This document shows positions 53,678 to 64,000 of a stretch of DNA of 64,000 nucleotides, piece after piece (the first letter of the stretch is position 1; each line of letters begins with the position of its first letter). Below the pieces are notes generated by a model. The model was not told the DNA's origin, did not search any database, and worked only from the letters and a program-made list of their open reading frames with translations. This DNA is from Oscillospiraceae bacterium. GTDB taxonomy: Bacteria > Bacillota > Clostridia > Oscillospirales > Acutalibacteraceae. Where the stretch lies: the NCBI GenBank assembly GCA_029225165.1, contig JAQXVY010000004.1:22321-86320 (forward strand), in the 5' to 3' direction. Made by a program: the position numbers and the translations under genes.

Positions 53678-53704
53678 AAAAAGAAAAGTCCCAATTATAG
53701 GACT
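53678..53704 (-). terminator. Candidate intrinsic terminator of the crRNA-like minus-strand RNA
   Basis: Minus strand AGTCCT ATAATT GGGACT TTTCTTTTT. Confidence 0.6.
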
Positions 53705-53710
53705 GAGTTT

Positions 53711-53753
53711 GTGTTATACTGTATGTGAAATTAAATCACATACAGTATAACAC
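53711..53753. repeat. Perfect 18-bp inverted repeat with 7-nt loop
   Basis: GTGTTATACTGTATGTGA AATTAAA TCACATACAGTATAACAC. Confidence 0.95.
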
Positions 53754-53825
53754 TCCAATTTGGATAGATTTAATTGTTTTTTAAAATATACACTCTTTAA
53801 AATCCAATTTGTTTAGATTTACTTA

Positions 53826-53854
53826 ATTTTATCACATAATATCCAAAATATCAA
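53826..53854 (-). promoter_or_regulatory. Candidate promoter of the crRNA-like RNA
   Basis: Minus strand TTGATA -N17- TAAAAT with TGA directly upstream of the -10 (extended -10). Confidence 0.6.
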
Positions 53855-53907
53855 ATGAGCGTTTTATACTTAAATTATAAATATTGATAGATAAATTAGT
53901 GAAAATG

Positions 53908-53929
53908 ATTTAATTAAATATACACTTGG
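53908..53929 (-). promoter_or_regulatory. Candidate target of the pseudo-spacer, next to a CCA PAM-like trinucleotide
   Basis: Minus strand CCA-AGTGTATATTT; AGTGTATATTT equals the first 11 nt of the pseudo-spacer AGTGTATATTTTAAAAAAC. Confidence 0.6.
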
Positions 53930-53931
53930 TG

Positions 53932-53959
53932 TTGACAAAGCGAAATATTGTGATATACT
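53932..53959 (+). promoter_or_regulatory. Candidate cas operon promoter
   Basis: TTGACA -N16- TATACT with extended -10 TGA. Confidence 0.7.
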
Positions 53960-54082
53960 AAATACAAAACAGAATTATTTAGCGATTTTAGTCGAATAAA
54001 AGAATATCTTGTAAAATTCAATATATTTTGTGAATAAATTTGTCTTAATTGTTTTTTATTATTATTAAAACAGGAGGTAAAA

Positions 54083-54811
54083 ATGAAAATTCTATTACAG
54101 TTTGTTTTGAAGAACAACAAATTGCCGGTAGATTACAGGCGAGTCTTTCTTTCCTTTTTCAAGCGAGTGCTCTCTGAAATTGCAGGTGGTGAGTATTACG
54201 AAAAATATTACTTCACCCCCCAAAGAAGAAATTTTACTTTTGCAGTGTATTTGCCTCACCCAAAATTCACTAAAAGTGAAATTACACTTGAAAAGAATGA
54301 ACTGCGTCTTACATTTTCTACCGCAGACAAAACCACAGGTTTTGTTTTTATGTCAGCTTTTATCAAGTATAAGGGCAGGAGTTTTCCGGCAACTTTGGGC
54401 AATACATTTACATTAACAAATGTTACTCAACAGTTGGAAAAGCAGACAAATTCAAAGGAAGTACTGGTGAAGATGTTAAGTCCTCTGTGTATCAGGGAGC
54501 ATAATGAAGAGGATAACACCGACAGGTATTTTTCTGTTGACAGCGACGAATTTCAGGAAAAAGGAAACAAAATTATCCAAGGTCAGCTTTTAGAATCGGG
54601 CTTTGACGAGGTTATGGTTTCCAAATTTACCATAAAACCCGTCAGCGGAAAAAAGACTGTTGTGTATCACTACGGAAACTACATTGAATGTAGCCTTGGT
54701 GAGTTTATCATCAGCGGTGACAAGGCGATAATAAATTATCTTTTACAAAGCGGTATCGGTTCAAGAAAATCAGCAGGATTTGGCTTTTCGTTACTTTTGG
54801 CTGAGGGATAG
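54083..54811 (+). CDS. cas6: CRISPR endoribonuclease Cas6
   Basis: 242 aa, first gene of the cas operon; C-terminal SGIGSRKSAGFGFSLL glycine-rich motif. Confidence 0.9.
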   Translation: MKILLQFVLKNNKLPVDYRRVFLSFFKRVLSEIAGGEYYEKYYFTPQRRNFTFAVYLPHPKFTKSEITLEKNELRLTFSTADKTTGFVFMSAFIKYKGRSFPATLGNTFTLTNVTQQLEKQTNSKEVLVKMLSPLCIREHNEEDNTDRYFSVDSDEFQEKGNKIIQGQLLESGFDEVMVSKFTIKPVSGKKTVVYHYGNYIECSLGEFIISGDKAIINYLLQSGIGSRKSAGFGFSLLLAEG

Positions 54812-54822
54812 GAGGTGATTGC

Positions 54823-56214
54823 TTGAAAATTAAGATTGACTATAGAGGATATGACGCACTACTCCAGCCCACCGACTGGAGATATGCGTCGGCAACACTT
54901 GGACTCTTAAAATTTTTGAAATACTATGGCTTTGACTATGAAATTTTGAATAATTGCGATGAAAAGCCTTGTGGTGCTGTGTACGGCTTTGACGGTATCC
55001 TGTACAAGCAGGAATACATTACAGAGGAAAATTATCTGCTTTTTGCAGAGCATCATTTTTCTAAGGATATGACGCATATCAGTATTCTAAATATGCTTAA
55101 AAAGGAAGAACTCAGTGATGAAGATGTTAAGACTGTCAACGAACTTTTAAAGAGCAAAACTGTATTGAAAAAGGTTATGGGCAAGGTTAAGTTTGACGGT
55201 GCAAATAAGGACGAAATAACCTCGCTGATTGAAAAAAACAGGCTTGAAATTATCAAAAGCATATTTAGATACGGAAAAAATCTTTACAGTAACTACTGCA
55301 ACAGCAATCTGTTGTTGACAGGTGAAAACAACCATTGCAGATTGACAGGCTATTCCGTTGACGAGGGCAGAAAAACAAGGTTTTTAGGCTTTTGCTTTTC
55401 AAAGGACAGCTTTGACAGCAACGACATACCGGAATTTGATTTCATCCCTTTTGCGTTTTCAAATGGCGATATGTACGAAACCTACTTTATCAACAACAAC
55501 TACTCCGTTGAAACCCTTGAAATTACAAGTGAAATTCTCTCTGAGGAGTTAGGCAAAGTTGAAAAAAGGGACTCAAGAACAAAGCTGCTTGCAGTTTTGC
55601 AAAGGGTTGAAAACTTTATTAACTATGATGTGGAAATCATTGTTAAGTCAAGGGATAATGAATATTACAACTCTCTGTATGTAAGGCTTGAATGCCTTAA
55701 AAAACTAAAGGATTTGAACGATAACTCGTTGAATTATACTATAAAAATAACAAATGAATACGAAATAAGCGTTGAGTGTGAAGTTTATGACCGTTGCCTT
55801 AATAATGTCTTGCTTGATGACCTTATTGAAAGAATGTTGGTACATTATTTTGAAAAGGATGTGAACAAGTCTATTGTTAAACAAATAACAGAAAATTTAA
55901 TTACAATTAATGCATCATGGAAAGGAAATTTAGAGATGAAAAAAATTGCAAATGATTTGGGATACAAGGCTAATATGATTCTTTTGGATAAAGACAAAAG
56001 TAAGGTTGGCATATTTAAGCGAAAACTCACAAGTGCATTTATTGCTCATGATTATGACAGAGTGATGGATATTATGCTAAAATTATCGGAATATGCAGAG
56101 ATGGATTTATCATTTTTTGTGAACTTCTTTGAAGAACCTGAAAAGAACAGAGAATTGATGTATGAATTTATATGCAAATTAGAAGTTCCGTCAGAGGACA
56201 AATCAAATAAGTAA
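54823..56214 (+). CDS. cas8: Type I-B Cas8 large subunit (Cst1/Cas8a1-like), TTG start
   Basis: Located between cas6 and cas7; N-terminal LQPTDWRYASATLGLLKFLKYYG; GGAGGTGATT upstream. Confidence 0.8.
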   Translation: MKIKIDYRGYDALLQPTDWRYASATLGLLKFLKYYGFDYEILNNCDEKPCGAVYGFDGILYKQEYITEENYLLFAEHHFSKDMTHISILNMLKKEELSDEDVKTVNELLKSKTVLKKVMGKVKFDGANKDEITSLIEKNRLEIIKSIFRYGKNLYSNYCNSNLLLTGENNHCRLTGYSVDEGRKTRFLGFCFSKDSFDSNDIPEFDFIPFAFSNGDMYETYFINNNYSVETLEITSEILSEELGKVEKRDSRTKLLAVLQRVENFINYDVEIIVKSRDNEYYNSLYVRLECLKKLKDLNDNSLNYTIKITNEYEISVECEVYDRCLNNVLLDDLIERMLVHYFEKDVNKSIVKQITENLITINASWKGNLEMKKIANDLGYKANMILLDKDKSKVGIFKRKLTSAFIAHDYDRVMDIMLKLSEYAEMDLSFFVNFFEEPEKNRELMYEFICKLEVPSEDKSNK

Positions 56215-56232: not shown

Positions 56233-57111
56233 ATGAAAAAAACAGCACTAACCCTAACAATAATTGCAAATATGACAAGCAACTACGGAGAAAGCCTTGG
56301 CAACATTTCAAGCGTACAAAAGGTATTCAGAGATGGAAAGGAATACGCCACAAGGAGCAGAGAAAGCCTTAAAAATGCTATTTGTGTTCAGTCAGGTCTT
56401 TATGACGACTTGCAAACTTCAAGTGTTACAGTTGCACAAAAACTCGTTACAAAGGACATCAATGCGGCAACCTGCAAAGCACTGGAGGGTGGATATATGT
56501 CCACAAAGGATGTTACATACATCAGGAACAGCTCCTTCTACCTCACCGACGCAATTTCGGCAGAGCCTTTTATCAATGACGCCCGTTTTCACAACAACCT
56601 TTTCCTTGCAACCAATTACGCAAAGGCTAACGGTAAAAATGTTCAAAATGATGCAAAAGAGTGTGGACTGAATCCATATCAGTACGAGTATGACAAGTCA
56701 ATCAAGATTTACAGCCTTACCATTGACCTTGAAAAGGTTGGTGTTGACGAAAACTTTGGTGCAGAGGCTGACAATGAGGAAAAGTGCAGTCGTGTACTGT
56801 CAATCATTGACGCAGTAGAAAATCTTTCCCTTGTTGTAAAGGGCAACCTCGACAACGCAGAGCCGATTTTCGTTGTTGGCGGACTTTCTCCGAGGAAAAC
56901 CCATATGTTTGAAAACGCAGTAAGGGTTGTGGGCAAAAACCTTGTAATTGAGCCTGTCAAGGAAAAACTGGATATGGGCTTTGCCTGCGGACTTATGCGA
57001 AACGGTCAGCTTGGCAACGAGGACGACATTGTGAGAGAACTAAATCCGACCACTGTGCCAAAGTTTTTTGGTGAGTTAAGGGAAGAAGTAAAGGAATATT
57101 TTGCAAATTAA
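56233..57111 (+). CDS. cas7: Cas7 (Cst2/DevR family)
   Basis: MKKTALTLTIIANMTSNYGESLGNISSVQKV; DevR/Cst2-like. Confidence 0.9.
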   Translation: MKKTALTLTIIANMTSNYGESLGNISSVQKVFRDGKEYATRSRESLKNAICVQSGLYDDLQTSSVTVAQKLVTKDINAATCKALEGGYMSTKDVTYIRNSSFYLTDAISAEPFINDARFHNNLFLATNYAKANGKNVQNDAKECGLNPYQYEYDKSIKIYSLTIDLEKVGVDENFGAEADNEEKCSRVLSIIDAVENLSLVVKGNLDNAEPIFVVGGLSPRKTHMFENAVRVVGKNLVIEPVKEKLDMGFACGLMRNGQLGNEDDIVRELNPTTVPKFFGELREEVKEYFAN

Positions 57112-57123
57112 GGTGGAATTAAT

Positions 57124-58194
57124 ATGAAAGCTGTAAGACTTCATATAAAGCAAAACAGCGCAAATTACAGGAAAGAGGAAACCGTAAATTGCCGAATGAC
57201 CTACCCTTTGCCACCTCCTTCCACTATAATCGGTGCTGTGCATAATGCCTGTAAATACACAAGTTACCACCCTATGAAGGTCAGCATACAGGGCAAGTAC
57301 GGCTCGCTGAAAACAAAAATGTACAAGGATAACTGCTTTTTAAATTCCCTGCAAAACGACAGAAATACCCTTGTAAAAATGCGAAATCCCGATATGCTGT
57401 CAACAGCATATGATGTTGTTGCTGTGGCACAAAATTCCCAGGGCAACGACTTTGACAAGGGTATTACAATCAATGTGGTAAATCAAAAGCTTTTGGATGA
57501 ATACCGATTTTTGAGAAGAACAAAAAAGCGTATTGATAAGCACAAAAAGCTCATTAAGGGAATGAAGGATAAGGCTAAAAAAATGAAGGCGGACGAAACT
57601 GTTTCCGAAAAGGATTTTAAAGTCTTTAGCGACAGGGTAAAGGAAATTGAAACCGCTTATAAAAGGTATGAGGAGCAGAAGTACACAGTGCCCTACTCAA
57701 AATTCAGAACCCTTGCCACAGGCCCAAAGTATATTGAAATGCTTTACGATATTGAGCTTGTAATTCATATTGTAAGCGATGAACAGACAATGACGGACAT
57801 TGTAAACAACATTGGAAACCTGACTGCAATAGGCAGGGGAGAGGACTTTGTTGAGGTGCTGGAATGCTGTGAAACAGAACTTCAGGAGGGGGAGATAACA
57901 ATAAAAAATGGTATTCGCAGATATGAAAAAAATATCTATATGCCACTTGAAGTTCTTGATAAAAATAAGGATACCGTTAAAGTTTTTAGCAAAGCTGTTG
58001 GGGAAAGAATGCAAGGAACAAAGTATCTTATGCCAAAGGATTATACCGTTGAGTATTTAAAGGGCGGTATGAGGAAAAGAAATTTCAACAAAATCCCTGT
58101 ATTATATGGTAGCCTTAGATACATAAAAGGGCAATGTGACGGTGTATATAAGGATTCTTTTAACGGACAGGATTATGCTGTATTTTTGGTTTAG
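57124..58194 (+). CDS. cas5: Cas5 (type I-B), with a charged internal insertion
   Basis: KAVRLHIKQNSANYRKEETVNCRMTYPLPPPSTIIGAVHNACKY N-terminal RAMP motif. Confidence 0.9.
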   Translation: MKAVRLHIKQNSANYRKEETVNCRMTYPLPPPSTIIGAVHNACKYTSYHPMKVSIQGKYGSLKTKMYKDNCFLNSLQNDRNTLVKMRNPDMLSTAYDVVAVAQNSQGNDFDKGITINVVNQKLLDEYRFLRRTKKRIDKHKKLIKGMKDKAKKMKADETVSEKDFKVFSDRVKEIETAYKRYEEQKYTVPYSKFRTLATGPKYIEMLYDIELVIHIVSDEQTMTDIVNNIGNLTAIGRGEDFVEVLECCETELQEGEITIKNGIRRYEKNIYMPLEVLDKNKDTVKVFSKAVGERMQGTKYLMPKDYTVEYLKGGMRKRNFNKIPVLYGSLRYIKGQCDGVYKDSFNGQDYAVFLV

Positions 58195-58197
58195 GGG

Positions 58198-60462
58198 TTG
58201 CAAATGGATATAGATTACTATTTCAAAAAGTACCTAGAAATTATTAAAACAGATAAGTTTAATGACGAAAAGCTCTTGGCTAAGCCAACAGAGTCTTTGC
58301 GAAGTCATACTGATAATGTGGTTAAACAAGCTTTCTTGCTAATGAAAATGAATTACATAAAATCAGAAAAGCTATTCTGGGATTTACTTATTTCTTGTGA
58401 ATTTCATGACTATGGAAAGATGAATGATATGTTCCAGAAAAGAGTTTCCCCAAACTATCGTAAATTTGCCTTTGATAAAGATAACGAGGTTGCACATTCT
58501 GCTATATCAATATTTTTTATCGATGATACTATTTGTAACAATTTTATCAGCGTGTTATTTGCGGTTTTATATCATCATTATAGAAAGGTTGAACCATCAT
58601 ATTGGATTGATAATGATCCTGAACTCGTTGATAAATTTTTAGAGGAGTTTGACAGTGTATTAAATTATGATGATATTCAAATATACCTTGGTGAAATTCA
58701 AGAACTATTTAAAACTCCCCTCGAATCCCCCGAAAAACAATACGCAGTACTGTTAAAGGGTCTATTGCACAAGTGCGATTATAGTGCCAGTGCCGGTATA
58801 GAGTGCGAAAAGAAAAATGATTTTCTCCTTGAATGTATTGATAACTGGAGTAAGAATAATTTTGAGGATGATTTTGAGTATAACAAACTGCAAATCTTCT
58901 GTTTGGACAACAGGGATAACAATTTGATTGTAACCGCCCCTACAGGAATGGGCAAAACAGAGGCGGGCTTGCTGTGGTGCGGTAATAACAAATGTTTCTT
59001 TGTTTTGCCCTTAAAAACTGCAATAAACGCTATGTATGACAGAATCAAAAAACTGTCCGGTGCTGATTTTAAGGATAGAGTTGCCCTTGTACATTCAGAT
59101 ATGAAATCATACTATCTTAAGGAAACAGACAAGAACAGTGACGAATCATTTGATTTTGATTACTTGGAGTACAGCAAACAGTTTTCCTTGCCTATTACAG
59201 TTTGTACCCCTGACCAAATTTTTGACTTTGCCCTAAAATATCCCGGCTATGAATATAAACTTGCAATTTCCTCCTATTCAAAATTTATAATTGATGAAAT
59301 TCAAATGTATTCTCCCGATGTGCTTGCCGCCATAATTTATGCAATTAAAATGATACACACAGTTGGAGGTAAGGTTGCAGTTTTAACCGCAACCTTGCCA
59401 CCCTTCGTAAAGAAAGAATTGCTGAAAATTTTTGGAGATGATGTGGTGCTGAACGACTTTTCCGATGAGGGAAAATTAAGACACAATGTAAAGGTGATTG
59501 AGGATAAACTCACTTCTCAAGATGTATATGATATTGTATCAAATACTAATGATGAAATAGTAAAGAAATACCTTGTTGTCTGCAACTCAATTCCAACAGC
59601 AAACAGAATTTACAGGGAACTCAAAGAGGGCGATATTGACGCCGATATTCACCTTTTTCACGCCAATTTTATTCAAATAGACAGAATGGAAAAAGAGAAA
59701 AATATTAAGAAAACCTCTGATAAAGAGCAAAAGGATATGCAAAGACCCGAAATATGGGTTTCAACCTCCGTTGTTGAGGCAAGTCTTGATATTAATTTTG
59801 ATATTCTTATTACAGAATTATCCGATTTATTCTCCCTGTTCCAAAGGTTTGGCAGAGTTAACAGAAATGGAAAAAAGGACTTTTCAAAATATAATTGCTA
59901 TGTGTTTACCGAGTTACAGGATACTGCAACAAAATTTGTTGACAAAACAATCCACAGCCTTTCCAAAGAGGCAATAATATCTGTTGACGGAGTTGTTACA
60001 GAAAAAGACAAAAATGAACTTATCGAAGAGCATTTGTCAGCAGAAAAAATTGAAAATTCACAGTATTACAAAGATTATTGTACCGTAATGGGCAATTATC
60101 AAAACGGCTATGATTATCTGAAAAGCAAGGATGACGGAATACGCAGTATTGACCGTATCAGCGTAATTCCCGAGCCTGTTTATGACGATAATTTTGGGAT
60201 AATTTGTGATGCCCTTGAAGTTTTGAAATCAAAGGAATCAACCCGAGATGATAAACTCAATGCAAGTGACGACATTAATTTGCTGACTGTTTCTGTTCCT
60301 ATGTACAGGTGCAAGAAACATAAAACAAAGAAATATGTTGACAGCCGTTACAACAATATACCCGTTGTCAACTGCAAGTACAGTAAGGAAACCGGAATAG
60401 ATTTTGAAGAGTCTGGCTCGGAAAACAATGATACAAGTGAAACAGAGGACCACTTTTTGTGA
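58198..60462 (+). CDS. cas3: Cas3 helicase-nuclease with N-terminal HD domain
   Basis: HD region (SCEFHDYGKMNDMFQ), Walker A TAPTGMGKTEAGLL, DEIQ box, VSTSVVEASLDINFD. Confidence 0.93.
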   Translation: MQMDIDYYFKKYLEIIKTDKFNDEKLLAKPTESLRSHTDNVVKQAFLLMKMNYIKSEKLFWDLLISCEFHDYGKMNDMFQKRVSPNYRKFAFDKDNEVAHSAISIFFIDDTICNNFISVLFAVLYHHYRKVEPSYWIDNDPELVDKFLEEFDSVLNYDDIQIYLGEIQELFKTPLESPEKQYAVLLKGLLHKCDYSASAGIECEKKNDFLLECIDNWSKNNFEDDFEYNKLQIFCLDNRDNNLIVTAPTGMGKTEAGLLWCGNNKCFFVLPLKTAINAMYDRIKKLSGADFKDRVALVHSDMKSYYLKETDKNSDESFDFDYLEYSKQFSLPITVCTPDQIFDFALKYPGYEYKLAISSYSKFIIDEIQMYSPDVLAAIIYAIKMIHTVGGKVAVLTATLPPFVKKELLKIFGDDVVLNDFSDEGKLRHNVKVIEDKLTSQDVYDIVSNTNDEIVKKYLVVCNSIPTANRIYRELKEGDIDADIHLFHANFIQIDRMEKEKNIKKTSDKEQKDMQRPEIWVSTSVVEASLDINFDILITELSDLFSLFQRFGRVNRNGKKDFSKYNCYVFTELQDTATKFVDKTIHSLSKEAIISVDGVVTEKDKNELIEEHLSAEKIENSQYYKDYCTVMGNYQNGYDYLKSKDDGIRSIDRISVIPEPVYDDNFGIICDALEVLKSKESTRDDKLNASDDINLLTVSVPMYRCKKHKTKKYVDSRYNNIPVVNCKYSKETGIDFEESGSENNDTSETEDHFL

Positions 60463-60469
60463 GGGAAAT

Positions 60470-60967
60470 ATGTCAAACAATGATGTAACAGGTATGCAGG
60501 TATATTACTACTATGTTTGCAAGAGGAAATTGTGGTATTTTTCCAATGAGCTTACAATGGAAAGTGAAAACGAAAATGTGAAAATTGGGAAAATTATTGA
60601 TGAAACTTCTTACAAAAATAAAAAGAAGCATATAATGATTAACAACACCATTAACATTGATTACATTTCGGAGCATAAGCTTTTGCACGAGGTAAAAAAG
60701 AGTAAGCACATTGAAGAGGCAAGCATTGCGCAGATTAAGTATTACTTGTATTATCTGAAAAAATATGGGGTAGAAGGGCTAAAAGGGAGAATTGATTTTC
60801 CTCTTCTAAAACAAAGTATAGATGTTGAATTATCAAAGGATGATGAAACAGAAATTGAAAAAGTCATTGAGGATATTAACAAAATTGTAGATATGGATTT
60901 GCCACCTGAGTTTATAAAGAAAAGGATATGCAAGTCCTGTGCTTACTATGATTTGTGCTGTATTTGA
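60470..60967 (+). CDS. cas4: Cas4 exonuclease
   Basis: YYVCKRKLWYF N-terminal Cys and C-terminal CKSCAYYDLCC cluster; track start 60404. Confidence 0.92.
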   Translation: MSNNDVTGMQVYYYYVCKRKLWYFSNELTMESENENVKIGKIIDETSYKNKKKHIMINNTINIDYISEHKLLHEVKKSKHIEEASIAQIKYYLYYLKKYGVEGLKGRIDFPLLKQSIDVELSKDDETEIEKVIEDINKIVDMDLPPEFIKKRICKSCAYYDLCCI

Positions 60968-61120: not shown

Positions 61121-61134
61121 GTATGAGGTGTAAA

Positions 61135-62127
61135 ATGCAAGAGAGTTACTATATCTATTCATCGGGAAATCTAACCCAAAAGGACAACACATTGAGATTT
61201 AAAACCCTTGACGGGGACACAAAGGATTTGCCTATTGAAAACATCAAGGAAATATACATAATGAACGAAATAACAGTAACATCCAAGTTGCTTAATCTGT
61301 TCTCAAAGTACGGTGTCATTGTGCATTTTTTCAATCACTATCAGTTTTACATAGGTAGTTTTTGTCCAAAGGAAAGCAAGCTTGCAGGTCAGTTACTTGT
61401 TCAACAGGCACTTGTGTACAGTGATTACACCAACAGACTTTCAATAGCACAGGAGTTTATTAAGTCTGCGTCCTTTAACATCTATCGAAATTTAAGGTAT
61501 TATAACGGCAGAGGTAAGGATGTTTCTTCCTCAATGAAAAGGATAGAAAATCTCCGAAAAAATATTGAAAAAACCGAAAGCATCGAAGAACTAATGGGTG
61601 TTGAAGGGAATATCAGACAGGAATATTACAAGGCGTGGAACATCATAATTGACCAAAATATTGATTTTGAGAAAAGGGTATATCATCCTGCCGACAATAT
61701 GATAAACAGCCTTATTTCTTATGTGAATACCTTGGTTTATACCAAAACCCTGTCAGAGATTTACAAAACACAGCTAAATCCCACAATCAGCTTTCTTCAC
61801 AAGCCCGGCACAAGGCGGTTTTCGCTTGCATTGGATATTTCAGAGGTGTTCAAACCGCTAATTGCCGACCGTCTTATTTTCTCTTTGCTCAATCGCAATC
61901 AAATTACAGAGGACAGCTTTGTGAAAGATTTAAACGGATTACAGCTAACCGAAAAGGCGTCAAAAACTATTATGGCAGAGCTTGACAATAAGCTAAAGAC
62001 TACGATTTTTCATAAGGAGCTAAATAAAAATGTGTCTTATCAATTCCTAATTCGTCTTGAATTATACAAATTGATAAAACACATTATCGGAGAAAAAGAG
62101 TACAACGGTTTTGAAATGTGGTGGTAA
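61135..62127 (+). CDS. cas1: Cas1 integrase (type I-B)
   Basis: YYIYSSGNLTQKDNTLRF, LHKPGTRRFSLALDISEVFKPLIADRLIF; track start 61123 overlaps the RBS. Confidence 0.95.
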   Translation: MQESYYIYSSGNLTQKDNTLRFKTLDGDTKDLPIENIKEIYIMNEITVTSKLLNLFSKYGVIVHFFNHYQFYIGSFCPKESKLAGQLLVQQALVYSDYTNRLSIAQEFIKSASFNIYRNLRYYNGRGKDVSSSMKRIENLRKNIEKTESIEELMGVEGNIRQEYYKAWNIIIDQNIDFEKRVYHPADNMINSLISYVNTLVYTKTLSEIYKTQLNPTISFLHKPGTRRFSLALDISEVFKPLIADRLIFSLLNRNQITEDSFVKDLNGLQLTEKASKTIMAELDNKLKTTIFHKELNKNVSYQFLIRLELYKLIKHIIGEKEYNGFEMWW

Positions 62128-62130
62128 AAT

Positions 62131-62409
62131 ATGTATGTAATTCTTGTGTATGACATACTATGCGATGATAAAGGCAAAAAAGTATTGCCTAAAATTTTTA
62201 AAATTTGCAAAAAATACCTTGTTCACATCCAAAATTCTGTTTTTGAGGGGGACTTGAGCAAATCAAATGCAATTGCATTAAAGAAAGAACTTGCCCAATA
62301 TGTGCGTAAGGACAAGGATTCTGTGATTATGTTTCATACCCGTGAGGAACGGTGGCTTAACAAGGAATTTTTGGGAATTGAAGAGGACAAAACCTCTAAT
62401 TTTTTGTGA
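62131..62409 (+). CDS. cas2: Cas2 endoribonuclease
   Basis: MYVILVYDILCDDKGKKVLPKIFKICKKYLVHIQNSVFEGDLS. Confidence 0.95.
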   Translation: MYVILVYDILCDDKGKKVLPKIFKICKKYLVHIQNSVFEGDLSKSNAIALKKELAQYVRKDKDSVIMFHTREERWLNKEFLGIEEDKTSNFL

Positions 62410-62594: not shown

Positions 62595-64000
62595 CTATAA
62601 ATCTATCCATACTGGATTTTAAATTGATGCATTTCGTGCGTTTTTATATTTTCCATAAGCTATAAATCTATCCATACTGGATTTTAAATTCTTGATTTTA
62701 ATTTCTGAAGGAAACAGACAAAAACTATAAATCTATCCATACTGGATTTTAAATCGAATTTCCTTTCGTTCTTCCTCAAAGGGGTCAATCTATAAATCTA
62801 TCCATACTGGATTTTAAATTTGATGAATTAGGCAAAACATTACCCGGTACAAAGTCTATAAATCTATCCATACTGGATTTTAAATATAATACAAGACGCA
62901 TTGTATAATGGAGGAATTTCCTATAAATCTATCCATACTGGATTTTAAATATTACTGCTCTTTGTGATGCAGAAGGTAAAGAGATATATAAATCTATCCA
63001 TACTGGATTTTAAATAAACACCAGAAAGGAAAAAATATGAAAGATTTGACTATAAATCTATCCATACTGGATTTTAAATTTATCTTGAAATCATTTCTGC
63101 GATTAGTGTCTGCACTATAAATCTATCCATACTGGATTTTAAATTCGTTCTCGTTACACTCATCTTCAGACTTGTAACTAACTATAAATCTATCCATACT
63201 GGATTTTAAATACTGTGGTACTGTTGGGTCGATCTCGCTTTCGTACTATAAATCTATCCATACTGGATTTTAAATAATTAATGACGATGCACCGTTATCA
63301 CGAACAGTATACTATAAATCTATCCATACTGGATTTTAAATAACTGAAATTACTTGAAAGAGTAGGAAAAATCAAGACTATAAATCTATCCATACTGGAT
63401 TTTAAATTTGAAAAAAAGCAAAACAGATAAGAAAGCATACAACACTATAAATCTATCCATACTGGATTTTAAATTTGAGGGAAGAAATTGTTTACAAATC
63501 AATACGCAAACTATAAATCTATCCATACTGGATTTTAAATTAAGAGGTTATAAAACTATAAAGAAAAATTACTTTACTATAAATCTATCCATACTGGATT
63601 TTAAATACAGAATATGTTGTTTTAGACTTGGAAACAACCGGGCTATAAATCTATCCATACTGGATTTTAAATTTCTTGTCTTGTTCTGTGATTAACTCAC
63701 CAGGTTTGCTATAAATCTATCCATACTGGATTTTAAATCCTAATTCAAATATGTAGGTGTTAGGTAACAAATGCTATAAATCTATCCATACTGGATTTTA
63801 AATCTTTGATGCCTGGGTTTTTAATACCGCCTCTGAAGCTATAAATCTATCCATACTGGATTTTAAATTTGAAACTATGACATCATTTTCATCAGTGAAG
63901 TACACCTATAAATCTATCCATACTGGATTTTAAATTAATAGGAAAGTTAAAATCCTCCCTCAATTTATCATCTATAAATCTATCCATACTGGATTTTAAA
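62595..64000 (+). CRISPR. Type I-B CRISPR array, 22 repeats visible (last cut at window edge), spacers 34-37 nt
   Basis: Repeat CTATAAATCTATCCATACTGGATTTTAAAT starting at 62595, 62660, 62725, 62790, 62856, 62921, 62986, 63050, 63115, 63182, 63246, 63312, 63378, 63445, 63511, 63577, 63643, 63709, 63774, 63839, 63906, 63972; internal hairpin ATCCA-TAC-TGGAT followed by an 8-nt tag TTTTAAAT. Confidence 0.99.

Follow-up and report, generated by a model that had tools for sequence, protein, structure and literature searches.

A crRNA-like RNA predicted to guide a type I-B Cascade to its own cas promoter in a Ruminococcus-group gut bacterium

In type II-A CRISPR systems, Cas9 represses its own promoter via a short natural guide, the long-form tracrRNA. 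The primary study of CreR guides is said to be one entitled 'Widespread RNA-based cas regulation...'. CreR autorepression is reported for types I-B, I-E and V-A (PMC13131331, PMC12737573, PMC12948488). CreR being already published for type I-B, the unit presented here adds to a known kind. The pairing rules of such guides have been worked out for the type I-B CreA of Haloarcula: mutating any of nucleotides 1–5 or 7–11 abolishes repression, and mutations at nucleotides 6 or 12 have no effect (PMC8501985). Haloarcula guides of 24 nt or less repress without cleavage or interference, and those of 20 nt and less repress weakly (PMC10989794). Racrs are RNA-based anti-CRISPRs in viral genomes that inhibit CRISPR by repeat mimicry (PMC10651486).

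The unit lies in a 64,000-nt stretch of DNA (hereafter the window), in the intergenic region between the divergent genes spoVT and cas6. It is very probably a CreR: a crRNA-like RNA through which a type I-B (Cas8a1/Csx8) Cascade would repress the cas operon that encodes it. What we observe directly is its anatomy, a unique seed-plus-PAM match, covariation across species and a six-nucleotide pairing imprint. In the predicted direction of transcription, the parts of the unit are:

53826–53854, minus strand: putative promoter of the crRNA-like RNA, TTGATA-N17-TAAAAT, with TG preceding the -10 (a consensus match only)
53795–53824, minus strand: ΨR1, degenerate repeat AAGTAAATCTAAACAAATTGGATTTTAAAG, 22/30 identical to the array repeat CTATAAATCTATCCATACTGGATTTTAAAT
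53776–53794, minus strand: pseudo-spacer AGTGTATATTTTAAAAAAC, 19 nt (the array spacers are 34–37 nt)
53746–53775, minus strand: ΨR2, degenerate repeat, 20/30 identical to the array repeat
53711–53753, minus strand: 18-bp hairpin, GTGTTATACTGTATGTGA / TCACATACAGTATAACAC, with its start where Cas6 is expected to cut ΨR2
53687–53704, minus strand: intrinsic terminator AGTCCT-ATAATT-GGGACT, then TTTCTTTTT, found by a terminator scan

This is a one-spacer mini-CRISPR with degenerate repeats beside a cas operon, and within the first 62.5 kb of the window ΨR1 and ΨR2 have no equal as a same-strand repeat pair. The 8-nt 5' handle TTTTAAAG comes from ΨR1 and is identical to the array-repeat handle at 7 of 8 positions; a repeat variant with TTTTAAAG is present also in an array stretch on contig C29. 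ΨR2 agrees with the array repeat at 17/22 positions of its 3'-handle part and at 3/8 of its last 8 nt: the 22-nt part AATTAAATCTATCCAAATTGGA, whose stem TCCA-AAT-TGGA is seen in the fold, has been kept and the last 8 nt have been lost. In nine loci, identity stands at 92% for the ΨR1 handle, at 53% for the final 8 nt of ΨR2 and at 77% for the 22-nt part that ΨR2 keeps. The same division of the handles between ΨR1 and ΨR2 is reported for CreA (PMC9458426).

The RNA of the unit folds at -45.2 kcal/mol (z = -7.7 against shuffles), mostly owing to the hairpin and the terminator. Terminator-like sites in the region are above chance (3 against 0.1 expected); promoter-like sites number 7 against 5.2 expected in shuffles, and the promoter scan alone is weak evidence for a minus-strand promoter. 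The 18-bp hairpin is a perfect palindrome, and the same form was not seen in relatives. A dispersed repeat it is not, as the genome holds no second copy at two or fewer mismatches. Its Rfam matches are sub-threshold microRNA look-alikes only, which we take as chance for that reason; a 3' stabiliser and an extra terminator are candidate roles.

The neighbouring cas genes form a complete type I-B operon with an array downstream, and they include the I-B signature genes (Cas8a1/Csx8, Cst2/DevR and Cas1b by TIGR profiles):

53960–54082, plus strand: cas6 leader, 123 nt, without a terminator and with AGGAGGT before the ATG
54083–54811, plus strand: cas6 (TIGR01877, E 3.5e-22)
54823–56214, plus strand: cas8a1/csx8 (TIGR02670, E 1.1e-108)
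56233–57111, plus strand: cas7 (Cst2/DevR) of type I-B (TIGR02585, E 8.5e-55)
57124–58194, plus strand: cas5b (TIGR01895 at E 1.3e-16, short of its curated cut-off; TIGR02593 clears its own)
58198–60462, plus strand: cas3, HD and helicase (TIGR01587, TIGR01596)
60470–60967, plus strand: cas4 (TIGR00372)
61123–62127, plus strand: cas1 (TIGR03641)
62131–62409, plus strand: cas2 (TIGR01573)
62595–64000, plus strand: CRISPR array with repeat CTATAAATCTATCCATACTGGATTTTAAAT, running off contig C4

The end of contig C29 (L029) holds more array with the repeat CTATAAATCTATCCATACTGGATTTTAAAT; the array probably continues there, with degenerating repeats at one end and two adjacent spacers that are identical. 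Comparison of the window and related arrays with phage records, and of six exact spacer patterns with IMG/VR, gave no usable protospacer, so that the PAM is not derived from the system's own spacers.

The guide finds its match beside a PAM at the promoter of this operon:

53916–53926, minus strand: seed target AGTGTATATTT in the cas6 promoter region, matching the first pseudo-spacer bases at 11/11 positions
53927–53929, minus strand: putative PAM 5'-CCA, adjoining the seed target
53932–53959, plus strand: cas promoter TTGACA-N16-TATACT, with 11/12 consensus matches and TG before the -10, the best in the region (hexamers at 53932–53937 and 53954–53959)

Over the first 18 guide positions, 15 match. 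A single site in the 1.97-Mb assembly, the one at the cas6 promoter, has the pattern CCN-AGTGTnTATTT, and a search of the rest of the genome found no second seed-plus-PAM target. Moreover, no CC-flanked seed match arose when the promoter region was put through 20,000 dinucleotide shuffles, even with position 6 left free. The 19-nt spacer is short and partly matched, and would not be expected to license interference. Pseudo-spacers in related loci run from 16 to 30 nt (median 19); given that a 20-nt guide is weak in Haloarcula, 19 nt may be near the limit.

A sequence-only reading of this DNA had already listed a minus-strand promoter, ΨR1, pseudo-spacer, ΨR2, hairpin and terminator, and each is present where it was placed, with the claimed repeat identities (22/30 and 20/30) confirmed against the array repeat. 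It had also paired the first 11 nt of the pseudo-spacer with minus-strand 53926–53916 next to 5'-CCA, which is exact, and had put this match five bp upstream of TTGACA, which is right if the first seed base is taken as the starting point; between the end of the PAM and TTGACA there are 2 bp.

What does the targeted promoter drive? A highly unlikely answer is that the RNA is the CreA antitoxin of a CreTA-like addiction module, with the promoter driving a CreT toxic RNA or peptide encoded in the 123-nt leader. The guide architecture of CreTA is identical, and the window's leader, at 129 nt from the -10 to the ATG, exceeds that of most relatives. However, most of those relatives have less than 85 nt between the -10 and the first start codon, which leaves little space for a gene, and we found no terminator between the targeted promoter and cas6. 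The longest ORF fully contained in the leader has 12 codons, with a GTG start and no Shine-Dalgarno sequence, and the others have at most 2 codons; no plausible creT lies under the targeted promoter.

If the unit is a CreR, its guide should follow its own promoter from species to species. In same-genus genomes with an orthologous cas6, this gene is preceded by the same pair of degenerate repeats, with different pseudo-spacers. Scanning 85,462 species genomes with a Cas7 alignment gave 80 related loci, mostly from Clostridia. Ectopic repeat pairs upstream of cas6 were called by repeat similarity only, ignoring targets, and were filtered to 17 distinct loci. In 14 of these 17 target-blind loci the pseudo-spacer has a CC-flanked 10/10 seed match (positions 1–5 and 7–11) to the cas6 promoter region of that locus. 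Mismatched spacer/region pairings yielded 2 such matches in 272, and random re-assignment of spacers gave a mean of 0.93 matches and a maximum of 8 in 20,000 trials. The seeds of the target-blind loci differ between species. A clean CC-flanked 10/10 match is absent in the other three (L033, L046 and L056, the last at 9/10). Further matches come from loci with one recognisable repeat, where the background of 10/10 CC-targets is 0.06% of positions; these loci were left out of the statistic because some had been noticed partly through their target.

The nearest orthologues can be aligned without gaps or breaks, base for base, through both element and operator, and seed and operator change together: on the plus strand, the window has ACACT/TGG where L041 and L042 have ATATT/AGG, with spacer and target altered alike. 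The sequence-only reading had suggested that homologous loci keeping the repeats without a conserved seed–promoter match would speak against it; the related loci show the opposite. Its broader proposal, a CreR/CreA-like regulator, is supported by the covariation and narrows to the CreR branch, since between the targeted promoter and cas6, which it feeds, there is neither a toxin gene nor a terminator. Taken as sequence comparison, this is unusually clear evidence for a CreR.

A guide candidate tuned to its own cas6 promoter region is present in 27 of the 80 scan loci, and also in the window and in one locus from a family search. Roughly two in three of the related cas loci have no detectable element, from which we conclude that it is dispensable. 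On the Cas7 tree the element occupies 28 of 81 rows with 17 label changes, a number matched or undercut in 2 of 500 shuffles; its distribution is more clustered than in most shuffles. The spread is also patchy, which indicates that the element repeatedly arose, disappeared or decayed beyond recognition. Two further observations concern individual loci. Downstream of ΨR2, L042 (Ruminococcus sp. FMBCY1) carries two minus-strand copies of GTCTTTACCATA. The Cas7 of L087, from a record titled Lutibacter sp. B2, groups firmly with Clostridium, pointing to a mislabelled genome or a transfer.

The matched pairs carry the imprint of a Cascade. Across the 28 loci with a CC-flanked match, the match frequency is about 1.0 at positions 1–5 and 7–11, and falls to 0.36 at position 6, 0.39 at position 12 and 0.36 at position 18, with about 0.38 expected by chance. 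Between the later dips pairing resumes: positions 13–17 are matched at 0.76 (106/140, against 21/56 at positions 12 and 18; Fisher p = 9e-7), a difference that holds in 15 target-blind loci alone (p = 0.007). The imprint was not built in, because positions 6 and 12–18 were unused in scoring. Dips at 6, 12 and 18 are what a type I Cascade predicts, since it leaves every sixth guide base unpaired. The PAMs of the 28 loci are CCT (14), CCA (12) and CCG (2); scoring favoured the CC and left the third base free. CCW is a validated PAM of the C. difficile I-B system (PMC8406132).

These data also bear on whether the unit does anything at all. It might be the functionless remnant of a decayed second CRISPR array that matches the promoter by coincidence, as its degenerate repeats (20–22 of 30), its single remaining spacer unit and the many related cas loci without an element would allow. 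A coincidence, however, would not let differing seeds each match their own promoter region in 14 of 17 target-blind loci (against the 2 of 272 cross-pairs) or return matching to chance at every sixth position, and a remnant would not be expected to divide roles between the ΨR1 handle and the 22-nt part of ΨR2 or to have its own terminator; we consider this exceedingly unlikely. Just as implausible is an ordinary DNA-binding protein that reads one AT-rich word in spacer and promoter beside merely CRISPR-like repeats: both copies are the same word in each genome and so bindable in principle, but such a site would not sit exactly behind a repeat handle, with CCW preceding the target and the handle preceding the spacer, nor should its word vary among species or have free bases at every sixth position.

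For the CreR reading we can sketch a mechanism, in which transcription, Cas6 processing, repression and relief are inferred from characterised CreR and CreA systems. Cas6 would cut the minus-strand RNA at ΨR1 and ΨR2, yielding a short crRNA-like RNA with an 8-nt 5' handle, a 19-nt guide and a 22-nt 3' handle, to be loaded into the type I-B Cascade. Guide nucleotides 1–5 and 7–11 would pair with the site that adjoins CCA and shortly precedes the -35 in the cas6-8-7-5-3 promoter. This pairing would be too short for Cas3 recruitment and cutting, so that Cascade would occlude the promoter and cas expression would fall. Relief could come from array crRNAs, or from anti-CRISPR proteins, that draw Cascade away. 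The immune complex of this Ruminococcus-group gut bacterium, in other words, probably switches down its own production.

Operators in the relatives are placed in several ways. In most, the target touches the -35 hexamer or is found immediately before it, the promoters being assigned by consensus matches (uncertain in L055, L075, L086 and L120). In L035, L069 and L082 the matching site is downstream of the predicted -10, implying a roadblock rather than promoter occlusion there. One pseudo-spacer of L045, a Ruminococcus MAG from horse faeces, has two 10/10 operators, with CCA upstream of the -35 and with CCT downstream of the -10, an arrangement that suggests double repression. The target is on the plus strand in L056, L059, L066, L077, L086, L096, L098, L099 and L106, so that Cascade would face the opposite way, relative to the promoter, from the Ruminococcus loci.

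We see an even chance that guide/operator control in Csx8-type I-B loci is long-standing and coevolving across Clostridia. Guide and operator would then drift together, pairing at positions 13–17 would be under selection, and the varied operator positions, ahead of the -35, past the -10 (L035, L069, L082) or on either side of the promoter (L045), would make graded CRISPRi circuits with different set-points.

The comparison turns a guess from a single genome into a comparative result and adds a clear CreR candidate to the I-B systems of the Ruminococcus group. Its guide/operator pairs display the six-base imprint of Cascade without any experiment, and amount to ready-made designs for short-guide CRISPRi in I-B systems. 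The pairs also imply that cas expression in these gut bacteria hinges on Cascade availability, and such dependence would bear on tools that supply guides to the native system.

How does the unit compare with known systems? It resembles a Racr in being a repeat-like RNA, yet Racrs are viral and built on a solitary repeat; here a guide matched to the promoter, with two repeats, lies beside a complete cas operon, and we set this assignment aside. With the long-form tracrRNA it has in common an RNA-guided effector acting on its own promoter, although that effector is Cas9 with a tracrRNA and not Cascade with a mini-CRISPR. The CreA of CreTA (Haloarcula I-B, Acinetobacter I-F) is closer, sharing the ΨR1–ΨS–ΨR2 order, an 8-nt handle that survives in ΨR1 but not in ΨR2, and seed pairing at nucleotides 1–5 and 7–11 (PMC8501985, PMC9458426); unlike CreTA, the window has a target that drives cas6 directly and no CreT gene. 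Closest of all are the CreR units of types I-B, I-E and V-A. The loci described here differ from them in host lineage (the Ruminococcus group and other Clostridia) and effector lineage (I-B with Cas8a1/Csx8), and the unit of the window also in the extra 18-bp hairpin of its 3' part; it shares with them a mini-CRISPR beside the cas operon, partial complementarity between guide and cas promoter, and a toxin-free design.
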